A DNA stretch of 64,000 bases from contig CANIVT010000003.1 in assembly GCA_947471565.1 (NCBI GenBank), positions 1-64,000 of the forward strand, read 5' to 3'. A model generated the notes under the pieces. The model was not told where the DNA came from and did no database searches. It saw only the letters and a list, made by a program, of their open reading frames with translations. A program made the position numbers and the translations under genes. Source of the DNA: Spartobacteria bacterium. Lineage in GTDB: Bacteria; Verrucomicrobiota; Verrucomicrobiia; Chthoniobacterales; UBA6821. Of the stretch, positions 55,739 through 60,553 are shown piece by piece (position 1 is the first letter of the stretch; each line of letters opens with the position of its first letter).

Positions 55739-56461
55739 CTACTTCGCCATCAACTTCTCGATTTCCGAGGAAACCTGCTGTCCCTGGGACTCCATTCCCT
55801 GAACATTGAAGTGGACGTTGTCGCTGTGAAGTTCAGGGTGACCCTTCATCGGGGTGAAGAGATCATCCACGACGATCCCCTGCGTTTTTACGATTTCCAG
55901 GGCAATGGCATTGCGAACTGCGATGCGCTCGTCGGAGGAACGGGGTTCTCCGGGCTTGACCGGAATGCTTTCTTTCAAGGGAGTAGTTGCAGCCCATATC
56001 AGCTTGGCCGACGTGGCATGCCTGCGGATGGTCTCCACAAGCACTGGAAAGCCGGCCCGATACTCCTCCTCGGTGTGCTGCCAGCCATGCATACCGTTGT
56101 TGAAATGGATTATATCATAATGGGAGTTATCCAGCACCATCGCGATCTGGGCAGCCAGCGTCGGATCCGATACGAAGGCCGAGGTGGCGAGACGATCCAC
56201 AAAAGCCTTCCCCTGAAGCTTCTTGCTCACGACGGGATAATACCCCCTGGTGATGGAGTCACCGATCAGCAGGACACGAGGAAGGCCTGACTTGGTCTGA
56301 TTCGGTTGCCAGATATCGCACCATTCAATAGCCTCCAGGCGCTGCTTGGAGCTGCCGTCAGGCTGGAGCTCGTCCGCAAAAACCCGCGAGGGAGTGACCG
56401 TTGCAAGAAGGATCATCGGCAACAGGAAACGAAGGATGGAATACATAGTGTAAATGTTCAT
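55739..56461 (-). CDS. Secreted SGNH/GDSL-family hydrolase
   Basis: This 240-residue protein has a signal sequence (about 6-28, ending RVFADE). The SGNH hydrolase fold follows: block I VLLIGDSITRG (about residue 66), FNNGMHGW for block III, and SDNVHFNVQG for block V, so the catalytic Ser and Asp/His are all present. Such enzymes deacetylate sugars or hydrolyse esters. It lies downstream of the alpha-L-fucosidase gene, which suggests removal of acetyl groups from fucose-containing polysaccharides. An ATG at 56446 is also possible. Confidence 0.82.
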   Translation of the reverse strand: MNIYTMYSILRFLLPMILLATVTPSRVFADELQPDGSSKQRLEAIEWCDIWQPNQTKSGLPRVLLIGDSITRGYYPVVSKKLQGKAFVDRLATSAFVSDPTLAAQIAMVLDNSHYDIIHFNNGMHGWQHTEEEYRAGFPVLVETIRRHATSAKLIWAATTPLKESIPVKPGEPRSSDERIAVRNAIALEIVKTQGIVVDDLFTPMKGHPELHSDNVHFNVQGMESQGQQVSSEIEKLMAK

Positions 56462-56489
56462 AGGGAAGGCTTTGAGATGTCGTGGAGAT

Positions 56490-57911
56490 TCAAGGCGTTG
56501 CCATGTCATGTGATGAAGCGGGGCCGGGGCTGAGTTCCAGGTTCACTATCGTATCGACCTCCTGCCGTTTGGAGGGATCAAGTTTCAAGGTGATGCCCTT
56601 TTCGTTCCGTTCGAAGACGACGGCGGCGCCGCTCAGGGTTTTTGCCGAGGCAACGGTCTTCCCGGGGATCGCCGGCAAGGAGAGAGTGTCCCCCTTGGGC
56701 CACTTCAGGATGTGGACATACAAATTGTTACCCTTTGCAGTAGTCACCCCGTAGTCGCCAGGTCGGATAGGTCCGGCCGTGGTGCCGTAGATGCTCACCC
56801 CGTTGATTTTGAGCCAATCGCCTGTTTTCTCAAGCCTATCGACCTCACGGGGATCGATTTGTCCCGTCGGCATGGGGTCGATGTTGAAGAGAAGGTTTCC
56901 CCCACCCCCGGCGCAGGAGACAAGCATCCTGATGCAATCGGCAAAGGGAACGACCTTGGTCTGGAATCCGTGCCAGGACCAGAATCCGGTGAAGGTCATG
57001 CAGGATTCCCAGTCCGTGTCGGCTTCATAAGCCCCAATTTTTTGCTCCACGGTCCTAAAATCTCCCGGAATGCCGCATCGGTCGTTGATGATGACATCTG
57101 GACGCAGGGAGCGGATCATCTTGAAGAGTTTCTTGCCTTCCCAGAGCTCGAAGGGATAACCGGGCCGGCTATCAAACCAGACGATGCGGATGTTCGGATG
57201 CTTCTCCATCAACTCACGGATCTGGTTGCGCATATACTCGTTGTATTTGCCGATCCTTTCTAGCGTGTAATCCGGGTGGTGCCAGTCGCGTTGCGAATAG
57301 TAGATTCCGAAGGGCATTCCGGCACGAGCGCTCGCCTCGGCCATCTCGCCGACGATATCTCGATGGAAGGGGGTGTTCATGACGTTGTGGTCAGTGAACT
57401 TCGTGTCCCACATACAGAATCCGTTATGGTGCTTGGTGACCATCACGATGTATTGCATGCCCGCTTTTTTGGCGGTCGCGACAATTTTGTCGGCATCGAA
57501 CATCCCGGGATAGAAGGACTTCGGCAGGTTATCGTAGACCTCCCTGGGAACGGCGGGACGGAACCATGCAAGCCACTCGTGGTGTTCCGGGATCCTGCCC
57601 ATGGCCGGACGGGGATTCTTCAGCTCGTGTTCCCCGTCGTCGTCGTAGAACTGCTTGCTCCAGCTGATCTCGCCGCACACCACGCTCGAGGGATCCCAAT
57701 GAATGAACATGCCGAACCTGGCATCCCTCCACCAATCCATCCGATTTCGACCCTCGGGTGATTTCTCAGCCCGCTTCACCTTGGTGGCATCAGCCAAGAA
57801 CCGCTCATCCTCAGCGGAGTCGTTCGTTCCTGCGCCCTGGGCGCGTAGCGCGGGATGAAGGAGGAGGGCCAAAATCAAAGCGGCGGTACGGAGGATTGGG
57901 GGGGTGTTCAT
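56490..57911 (-). CDS. Secreted alpha-L-fucosidase (GH29)
   Basis: This 473-residue glycoside hydrolase family 29 enzyme has a signal peptide (about 1-27, ending LRAQG). It then has WWRDARFGMFIHWDPSSV, DADKIVATAKKAGMQYIVMVTKHHNGF, and FGIYYSQRDWHHP. The expected nucleophile is the Asp in IVWFDSRPG (about residue 243). The C-terminal beta domain is short. It releases terminal L-fucose outside the cytoplasm. A 29-bp gap separates it from the SGNH gene. Confidence 0.9.
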   Translation of the reverse strand: MNTPPILRTAALILALLLHPALRAQGAGTNDSAEDERFLADATKVKRAEKSPEGRNRMDWWRDARFGMFIHWDPSSVVCGEISWSKQFYDDDGEHELKNPRPAMGRIPEHHEWLAWFRPAVPREVYDNLPKSFYPGMFDADKIVATAKKAGMQYIVMVTKHHNGFCMWDTKFTDHNVMNTPFHRDIVGEMAEASARAGMPFGIYYSQRDWHHPDYTLERIGKYNEYMRNQIRELMEKHPNIRIVWFDSRPGYPFELWEGKKLFKMIRSLRPDVIINDRCGIPGDFRTVEQKIGAYEADTDWESCMTFTGFWSWHGFQTKVVPFADCIRMLVSCAGGGGNLLFNIDPMPTGQIDPREVDRLEKTGDWLKINGVSIYGTTAGPIRPGDYGVTTAKGNNLYVHILKWPKGDTLSLPAIPGKTVASAKTLSGAAVVFERNEKGITLKLDPSKRQEVDTIVNLELSPGPASSHDMATP

Positions 57912-57973: not shown

Positions 57974-60553
57974 CTAAAATTGGGCCGGCATAGGCGCAGG
58001 GATGTTCAGCACCGGGGGGGCGGTCGGAAGATCCATCGGTCCGACCGGTTCGGCACGTCGCACCTCTTTTTCCCCGTCGGCAGGAGTGGCCGGCAGCGCG
58101 GTCGCGACCGGAACATTGGTGCCCCCCGCAGCCAGAGGATCCTTCCCGTCCGGAGTCGTTGCCCGCGCCACCTTCATGGAGGAATCGTCTGATGCGGCGT
58201 TTCGCATCGCGGGATTGACGGATCGGTAGAGGTCGTTCTGGGCCAACAGAGTCGGGGCGCTCACCGGTACCGGACGGACACGGGAGAGATCGACGGCGGC
58301 AGCCGCGCGCGGCCATTCGGCCTGATCGATCGACTTGTCATAACTACGTACCCCGTTGCCGTGAACGTCGCACTCCTGCGAAGGCATCTCTTCTTTGGTG
58401 GCGTATATCGTGGCGAGCAGCCCCTTCTCCTTGGCACAACCCTCGGCCGGAAGGAGTCCCGAAGCACGGCAAACATCGACTTTTTCCAGCCCCGAAGGCA
58501 TCGGGAGCGGAGCCGGAGGGAAGGAACCGAGCGAGGCGTTCATGACGTCCGCCCAGATCGGCAGGGCCAGATCCTTGCCGAAAGCCCCGCGATAGATTTT
58601 CGTCGGCTTGTCAAAGCCGACCCAGACCCCGCAGGTGACGGCCGTGTCGTATCCGACAAACCACGAGTCGGTGAAGTCGTAGGCCGTCCCCGGCTTGCCA
58701 GCCAGCGGGGCATTGGCGGGAATCCCGGCGCCCGCAGCGGCCTGCGCACAGGTCTTGAAGAGGGCATCCTGCAGGATCGCATGCACCTGCCAGGCCGGTT
58801 TAGGATCCATGACCAGCACGCGGGAGGGGGTGTTCTCGTAAAGGACACCACCCTCGGGATCAGTGATGCTGGAGATGGTGAAGAGTTTGGTCGGCCGGGT
58901 TCCCTTGCCCGGGAACGACATGTAGGCAAGCGTGAGTTCATCAAGACTCATCTCGCTTGAACCAAGGTAGGCATTGGCCACGTCGCGGAGCGGGGAGCGG
59001 ATGCCGGTCGCAGCGCAGAGCTTTCCCAGATCCTCAAGTCCAGTGCGGAAGCCAAGACGCACGACGGCGGCGTTCTTGCCTTGCGAGACCGCCTCGGACG
59101 AGGGCATCGGCCCCTCGTATTCGTTGTCGGCACGCTCCACGCCCCATTCCCCGAGAATTCCATTGTCCCCGCCGATCATGACGAAATGATTATCCAAACA
59201 GGCGTCGTCCACGGGCTCCCCTGGGAATATCCCCTTGGCATAGGCGGCGGCGGCAACAAAGGGCGTGAAAAGCGTCCCGGGGGGACGACGCCCCTGGACC
59301 GCCCGGTTGTATTCGCTGTGGAGAAAGTCCCGACCCCCGGCCAAGGCCAGGATTCCGCCGGTGGCATTGTCGACAGCCAGAACCGCTCCCTGAAGATAAG
59401 GGGGCGCAGGCATTATCACCGACTCGCCGCGCTGGGCAGCCTCCTCGGCTTTCCGGTTGATCTCGCGATACCTGGCGTAGGTGAGATGCGCGTAGCCCGG
59501 TTGCTTCTCCACCGCCTCCAGGCGGGTGCGCAGGGAACGTTCCGCCGCCTGAAGCAGGCGGGCATCGTAAGTGGTGCGGATCCGGACCCCCTCGTTCATG
59601 GCCTGATCGAATCCGAGCGCGGCAATCGCCTGCTGACGCACCAGGTCGATCGCATAGGAGACGCGGTTGGGATTGGTGCGCTTACGGACCGAGAGATTGA
59701 GTTCCACGGCACCCTCGTACTCCTCGCGGCTGATAAGGCGCATCTCGCGCATCCGGGTCAGGACGAAATCACGCACTTTTCGCGCACCCTTGGGATTGTT
59801 CCAGGGCGAGAGTGCGTTGGGACTCTTGAGCAGACCGGCAAGCATGGCACATTCACCGACCGTGAGATCCTTTGCGGGTTTGCCGAAATACCCTCGGGCC
59901 GCCGCCTCGATCCCGTACAGACCGCTTCCGAAATAGACTCTGTTGAGGTAGAGCTCCATGATCTTCTCCTTGGAGAGGTGATCCTCGATCCGCTGGGCAA
60001 GGAACATTTCCAGAAGCTTCCGCTTGTAGCTGCGCTCATGGAGGTCGAAGGAATTGCGGGCTAGTTGCTGGGTCACGGTGCTGGCCCCCTGCTTGACCCG
60101 CCCCTGATGCCAGTTGCTGATCGCCGCGCGGAGCACGCCGAAATAATCGACCCCATGGTGATCGAAAAAGCGGTTGTCCTCCTCGGCCACGACCGCATTC
60201 ACCATCTCCTTCGGGATCTGGTCAAAGGGGATTGGAAGCCGGTTCTGGATGAAAATCTTGCCGATCTGCACCCCGTTGCGGTCGAGGATCACGCTCGCCG
60301 ACTCCATCTTCTGGATCTTGTTGAGATCGAAGGCATCGGCCTTGGCGGAGTATTCCGAAACAAGCCACCCGTAACCCGCCAGGGCAACCGCCGCCGCAAA
60401 AAGGACCAGAAGCAACGGCGCAAGGAACCAAAACCGCAGGTACCAAGGTTTCCTGCGGCGGGGCTCCTCCTGCTCCCAACTGTATCGGTGGCGTGCGATC
60501 AGAGATCTTTCCCAAGAAAGGGGGCAAAGTGAAAGTGAAAGTGAAGGAAACAA
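57974..60553 (-). CDS. Class A penicillin-binding protein with altered transpeptidase motifs
   Basis: This is an 859-residue PBP1A-like protein: one membrane helix (about 41-62), GT51 glycosyltransferase and a transpeptidase-fold domain. GT51 motifs are intact: EDNRFFDHHG (about 125-134), QGASTVTQQLARN (about 155-167) and LYLNRVYFG. The transpeptidase motifs are not: SxxK is TLFT (427-430), SxN is GKN (492-494) and KTG is KPG (620-622). The enzyme should polymerise glycan strands but probably cannot cross-link. The C-terminus is a Pro/Ala-rich tail of about 130 residues. The start is uncertain: no in-frame ATG precedes the helix, so I gave the TTG at 60553. Confidence 0.85.
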   Translation of the reverse strand: MFPSLSLSLCPLSWERSLIARHRYSWEQEEPRRRKPWYLRFWFLAPLLLVLFAAAVALAGYGWLVSEYSAKADAFDLNKIQKMESASVILDRNGVQIGKIFIQNRLPIPFDQIPKEMVNAVVAEEDNRFFDHHGVDYFGVLRAAISNWHQGRVKQGASTVTQQLARNSFDLHERSYKRKLLEMFLAQRIEDHLSKEKIMELYLNRVYFGSGLYGIEAAARGYFGKPAKDLTVGECAMLAGLLKSPNALSPWNNPKGARKVRDFVLTRMREMRLISREEYEGAVELNLSVRKRTNPNRVSYAIDLVRQQAIAALGFDQAMNEGVRIRTTYDARLLQAAERSLRTRLEAVEKQPGYAHLTYARYREINRKAEEAAQRGESVIMPAPPYLQGAVLAVDNATGGILALAGGRDFLHSEYNRAVQGRRPPGTLFTPFVAAAAYAKGIFPGEPVDDACLDNHFVMIGGDNGILGEWGVERADNEYEGPMPSSEAVSQGKNAAVVRLGFRTGLEDLGKLCAATGIRSPLRDVANAYLGSSEMSLDELTLAYMSFPGKGTRPTKLFTISSITDPEGGVLYENTPSRVLVMDPKPAWQVHAILQDALFKTCAQAAAGAGIPANAPLAGKPGTAYDFTDSWFVGYDTAVTCGVWVGFDKPTKIYRGAFGKDLALPIWADVMNASLGSFPPAPLPMPSGLEKVDVCRASGLLPAEGCAKEKGLLATIYATKEEMPSQECDVHGNGVRSYDKSIDQAEWPRAAAAVDLSRVRPVPVSAPTLLAQNDLYRSVNPAMRNAASDDSSMKVARATTPDGKDPLAAGGTNVPVATALPATPADGEKEVRRAEPVGPMDLPTAPPVLNIPAPMPAQF
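60526..60543. repeat. Hexanucleotide microsatellite (AAAGTG) x3 in the PBP N-terminal region
   Basis: Three perfect AAAGTG units read as alternating Ser-Leu codons in the minus-strand frame of the PBP gene, just after its predicted TTG start. An ATG at 60557 is one frame off. Six-base changes would keep the frame. Confidence 0.85.

Follow-up and report, generated by a model that had tools for sequence, protein, structure and literature searches.

Class A penicillin-binding proteins (PBPs) are treated as bifunctional enzymes and are tallied in genome surveys according to the domains they contain. A survey of class A PBPs lists Akkermansia as positive, and the parts of its text open to searching do not mention the terms “catalytic”, “inactive” or “transpeptidase domain” (PMC8406291). 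The PBP1a proteins of Acinetobacter baumannii and Pseudomonas aeruginosa share with the protein described here the domain order, the membrane anchor, the catalytic residues of the GT51 domain and the transpeptidase fold (Z up to 47.8); in the latter, however, the SxxK serine and lysine and the SxN serine are replaced, and an extra conserved block (residues 455–473) is present. Monofunctional GT51 enzymes of the MtgA/SgtB type (e.g., the solved 3VMQ) resemble it in predicted net chemistry, that is, glycan polymerisation only, but unlike them it keeps a constrained transpeptidase-like domain of ~290 residues and a C-terminal part. In Escherichia coli, the L,D-transpeptidase YcbB can still rely for its glycan on the polymerase of PBP1b S510A, a variant dead as a transpeptidase (PMC5089857); there, as is predicted here, the glycosyltransferase is active, the transpeptidase is catalytically blocked and a partner enzyme cross-links. 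While PBP1b S510A is engineered, the state of the protein presented here appears natural, ancient and selected, and more residues are changed. No description of the clade to which it belongs was found in the literature outside subscription journals, either on inactive or degenerate class A PBPs or on the PBPs of Akkermansia and Verrucomicrobia.

The gene lies in a stretch of 64,000 nt (the window) of a 2.28-Mb assembly, 97% complete and related to freshwater Spartobacteria/Chthoniobacterales (G000). Its features are collected in Table 1, with residues numbered from the TTG at which an uninterrupted reading frame of 859 codons (57974–60553, reverse strand) was counted. The initial annotation had called the GT51 motifs intact, and the catalytic Glu125 and Glu182 are indeed present and invariant across the clade. 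A full PF00905 domain follows, which sets the protein apart from the monofunctional glycosyltransferases, where GT51 stands without a transpeptidase domain; its score is 51–54 bits, as against 221–269 bits for the three class B PBPs of the same genome.

Table 1. Features of the altered class A PBP gene and its product in the window
Feature	Position	Strand	Basis
Class A PBP with altered transpeptidase motifs	57974..60499	(-)	Probable CDS, ATC start to stop
Probable start codon ATC	60497..60499	(-)	ATH at the same place in ~32 relatives
N-terminal membrane helix, residues 38–73 of the TTG frame	60335..60442	(-)	Predicted, AlphaFold2 model
GT51 transglycosylase domain (Transgly), residues 97–268	59750..60265	(-)	Pfam PF00912, 1.4e-65, 216 bits
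Transpeptidase-like domain, residues 389–640	58628..59389	(-)	Pfam PF00905, 51–54 bits
SxxK place = TLFT (T427-L-F-T430)	59264..59275	(-)	Alignment and clade columns
Clade-specific conserved block, residues 455–473, NHFVMIGGDNGILGEWGVE	59135..59191	(-)	Between the SxxK and SxN places
SxN place = GKN (G492-K-N494)	59072..59080	(-)	Alignment and clade columns
KTG place = KPG (K620-P-G622)	58688..58696	(-)	Alignment and clade columns

When the protein was aligned to solved class A PBPs by phmmer, GTLFTPF fell on GSSFKPF of P. aeruginosa PBP1a (4OON) and on GSTIKPF of A. baumannii PBP1a (3UDF); against the solved PBP1a structures, GKN aligned with SRN and GKPGT with GKTGT. The original reading of the three places as TLFT, GKN and KPG is borne out by the codons and by this alignment, and a search of the structure alignments for an intact set of SxxK, SxN and KTG elsewhere in the domain returned none. 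That all three motifs are altered is correct for SxxK and SxN and seems overstated for the third, where KPG keeps the functional lysine and glycine. Residues were counted in 102 non-redundant members of the altered clade and, for comparison, in 28 intact paralogues, which without exception carry S, K, S, N, K, T and G at the corresponding places. The nucleophile place (427) is threonine in all 102 members; the place of the general base (430) is variable (T 50, L 28, V 9, K 9, others 6), and that of the SxN serine (492) is G in 54, S in 47 and A in one. Lysine follows at 493 (101 of 102) and asparagine at 494 (90 of 102). Lys620 and Gly622 are each found in every member and the place between them is loose (T 64, S 31, P 4, A 2, N 1), so that KPG is probably a minor change; the commonest form at this place in the family of the window organism is KSG. 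Parsimony on a tree of 51 members, the odd paralogue L195 included, required no change at 427 or 622, one at 620, four at 492, nine at 621 and 14 at 430.

By descent and fold the protein is a class A PBP, yet neither the SxxK (TLFT, with threonine first in the whole clade and the lysine in nine of its 102 members) nor the SxN (GKN) of a bifunctional one is found in it. The acylation machinery, i.e., serine, lysine and the SxN serine, is judged from these columns to be lost, with part of the substrate-binding wall remaining. Of the 23 sites that never vary in the transpeptidase-like domain, ten lie in the block 455–473, which may cover or reshape the cleft. Sequencing error does not account for the altered motifs because they recur in relatives.

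The altered clade is monophyletic, spans Chthoniobacterales and Verrucomicrobiales and is fully separated from the SxxK clade with a support of 100; with members of other orders added the support is 99, in a tree that stems from a quick search, contains several long branches and places L195, L187, L191, L196 and L202 unsurely. Genus-mates of the window organism mostly have two class A PBPs, an orthologue of 840–870 residues with TxxT, GKN and K(S or P)G, and a protein of 645 residues with SSAK, SRN and KTG. Within the altered clade, strain LR76 (L106) has TAFV/GKN/KTG, and genomes of the genus g27 have TAIL, TALL or TSIL together with SKI and KTG or KSG; g27 is identified as Akkermansia because a protein of one of its genomes (G077) matches the solved Amuc_1100 over nearly the whole length (E 1e-148). 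Nine members retain TxxK, mostly together with SKN and KTG, among them the cultured Chthoniobacter flavus Ellin428 (L125; TAFK/SKN/KTG); judged by these residues, the nine could be active. Of 387 genomes sampled across the phylum, 43 contain the signature ILGEWGxE, the core of the block 455–473; all 43 belong to the same class, and the reversed control of the signature had no match among the matches listed. The altered motif state is, as far as these sequences tell, ancestral and class-wide.

In other Verrucomicrobiae, the transpeptidase motifs of further class A PBPs are degenerate as well, namely AAFE, ELFT, RVAA, TAFL and YLLS, at the loci L191 (G230:C12:137542), L196 (G077:C1:648084), L202 (G062:C27:15485), L195 (G120:C1:363675) and L187 (G371:C113); L191 lies ~2 kb from the intact L198 of the same genome. 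The GT51 domain is absent from 15 of 24 sampled Verrucomicrobiota genomes, and in two 0.9-Mb members of the order (G028 and G038) both GT51 genes have been lost, as have nearly all genes of the YkuD type. The window genome also encodes a distant representative of the pilus-like Amuc_1100 family (L209, G000:C21:16420–17322), which at 119 bits scores below the curated cut-off.

Purifying selection on the altered domain is strong, with a dN/dS of ~0.06 and a constraint like that of the intact paralogue: dN/dS of the transpeptidase-like domain in close pairs is 0.04–0.13 (below 0.06 in six of seven pairs), that of the intact paralogue 0.03–0.06. When changes per site in the transpeptidase domain are divided by those in the glycosyltransferase domain, the altered clade has a ratio of 1.13 and the intact clade one of 1.23. 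The constraint being full, the domain has not been discarded; to call it dead, as had been done at first, is appropriate for its acylation chemistry and not for the domain as such, which is as constrained as its intact counterpart. An AlphaFold2 model (mean pLDDT 79) is mostly above 90 in the transpeptidase-like domain, 54–72 at residues ~451–480 and of low confidence in the last 120 residues. It superimposes on 4OON with a Z of 45.7 (2.0 Å over 380 residues) and on 3UE1 with a Z of 47.8 (503 residues, rmsd 6.5), and the domain is accordingly modelled as an ordinary penicillin-binding fold.

The gene probably starts with ATC (AUC in the mRNA) at 60499 and not with the TTG at 60553 chosen by the ORF tool, which would add 18 non-conserved residues. 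ATC, ATA or ATT stands six codons ahead of a conserved SWE in ~32 relatives, and in 17 of these there is no ATG, GTG or TTG between the ATH and the preceding in-frame stop; such putative near-cognate starts are found at L008, L010, L011, L013, L021, L023, L025, L026, L033, L061, L095, L096, L104, L108 and L110, and ATG occupies the equivalent place in five relatives (L017, L032, L111, L113 and L119). The codons after the ATH are probably translated, since third-position changes there are synonymous, and an AUH start of this gene is likely conserved over several families. AUA (infC) and AUU starts, with a lower protein yield, have been reported for Staphylococcus aureus (PMC13009471).

Across families no conserved neighbour or dedicated partner gene was found beside the PBP gene, and a transpeptidase acting as operon partner was rejected because no neighbour is kept. 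The adjacency of nagA/galT/galK and of OpcA/G6PD is conserved in the genus only. Between the PBP gene and the OpcA/G6PD pair the window contains genes for a GH29 alpha-L-fucosidase and a GDSL-type esterase (55739–57911); they look inserted, as OpcA directly follows the PBP gene in genus-mates.

A search for GT51 had one match in the genome, which would make the altered protein its sole class A PBP; this was rejected. A second, intact class A PBP, for which the initial annotation had proposed to look, is present at C1:127068 (L004), with SSAK, SRN and KTG in a readable transpeptidase half; its glycosyltransferase half is masked as N, and the masking creates a false open frame of 24349 aa. This paralogue (L004, L036–L046) is homologous to the window protein in both domains (36–38% identical) but differs from it in retaining all catalytic residues, in its length of ~645 aa and in forming a separate clade. 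In addition, the genome encodes the three class B PBPs, whose SxxK and KTG motifs are intact, two SEDS proteins and, distributed over C1, C2, C5 and C17 (L213–L216), eight L,D-transpeptidases of the YkuD type.

The reading that a glycan polymerase lacking SxxK-type acylation is encoded here was the original one and remains the best for the sequence, with serine replaced by threonine, lysine by threonine and the SxN serine by glycine while the GT51 glutamates are invariant. From sequence and model it is considered likely that the protein is a glycan polymerase with a retained, non-acylatable transpeptidase-like module, cross-linking being left to other enzymes. The analysis itself shows the sequence with its conservation and the selection on it, the predicted fold and the inventory of genes; from these we infer glycosyltransferase activity, the loss of acylation and penicillin binding, the binding of peptides or partners, and cross-linking in trans. 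Accordingly worded, the membrane-anchored paralogue would polymerise glycan strands through its intact GT51 domain; neither SxxK cross-linking nor acylation by beta-lactams is expected, because the nucleophilic serine is missing, as is the lysine that serves as general base. The transpeptidase-like domain would retain the penicillin-binding fold, the KTG lysine and glycine and the SxN asparagine, the latter residues as part of the substrate-binding wall, and would be a non-catalytic part kept by selection, most likely binding stem peptide or partner proteins and thereby positioning or gating the polymerase. Its glycan would be cross-linked by other enzymes, for which the intact class A paralogue, the three class B PBPs and the eight L,D-transpeptidases are candidates. 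That polymerisation and cross-linking can be shared out in this way is chemically possible, as the glycan made by PBP1b S510A is cross-linked by YcbB (PMC5089857).

More tentatively, the protein may be the dedicated polymerase of a 3-3 cross-linked wall, making glycan for L,D-transpeptidases, a route which most beta-lactams miss; this is compatible with the preferred explanation, as its downstream step, and we hold it possible rather than probable. The eight YkuD genes in a genome of 2.28 Mb are consistent with it, as is the service of a transpeptidase-dead PBP1b to YcbB (PMC5089857). Genomes of families with the clade contain 4–18 YkuD genes, while most families of the same class without it have 1–3; however, the association exists at the level of lineages and does not amount to proof, being drawn from few lineages and confounded by the possession of any GT51 gene. 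Exceptions are the family f16, which has 6–8 YkuD genes and lacks the signature, and f105 (3–12), which lies outside the signature comparison; further, YkuD enzymes may also anchor lipoproteins.

The strongest rival differing in kind is a threonine-based enzyme, since Thr427 stays even where the lysine is replaced. Thr427 would act as the nucleophile, activated by another residue, e.g., Lys493 or Lys620, and the resulting transpeptidase or carboxypeptidase would be slow or insensitive to beta-lactams. Thr427 did not change on the tree, as against 14 changes at the lysine place, and Lys493, Asn494, Lys620 and Gly622 are nearly as constant or fully so (101, 90, 102 and 102 of 102); conservation of these five residues seems to go far beyond the need of a pure scaffold and leaves room for chemistry, and some members retain TxxK, SKN and KTG. 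On the other hand, the SxxK lysine and, in the lineage of the window organism, the SxN serine are absent together, and serine or threonine is a common helix N-cap, which could by itself fix Thr427. We know of no PBP with a threonine nucleophile and without the SxxK lysine. Such an enzyme is considered unlikely, and equally so the wider proposal that the domain is not dead at all, the invariant threonine and its conserved lysine, asparagine and lysine-glycine partners sensing a ligand or transferring acyl groups with no need of the SxxK lysine. If true, it would mean that the penicillin-binding fold has a new, beta-lactam-insensitive active site, distributed over the Verrucomicrobiae with Akkermansia among them.

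A recent loss of function in the window organism only, by decay of the gene or an assembly error, is very improbable: KPG does occur in just four of the 102 non-redundant members, but TxxT and GKN occur throughout the genus and in a large part of the order and dN/dS is well below 1, and on this shared state and low dN/dS a pseudogene or assembly error was rejected.

Judged by its sequence, the altered PBP gene does not look broken; its product seems to be a variant that serves a purpose and is blind to penicillin. If the reading as a polymerase with a non-acylatable transpeptidase module is true, a class A PBP selected in this form throughout a lineage would be a natural case of separation of function. 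It would open the question of which roles the transpeptidase fold has besides catalysis, and of how the glycan of a penicillin-blind polymerase becomes cross-linked, in a group that includes the much-studied gut bacterium Akkermansia.
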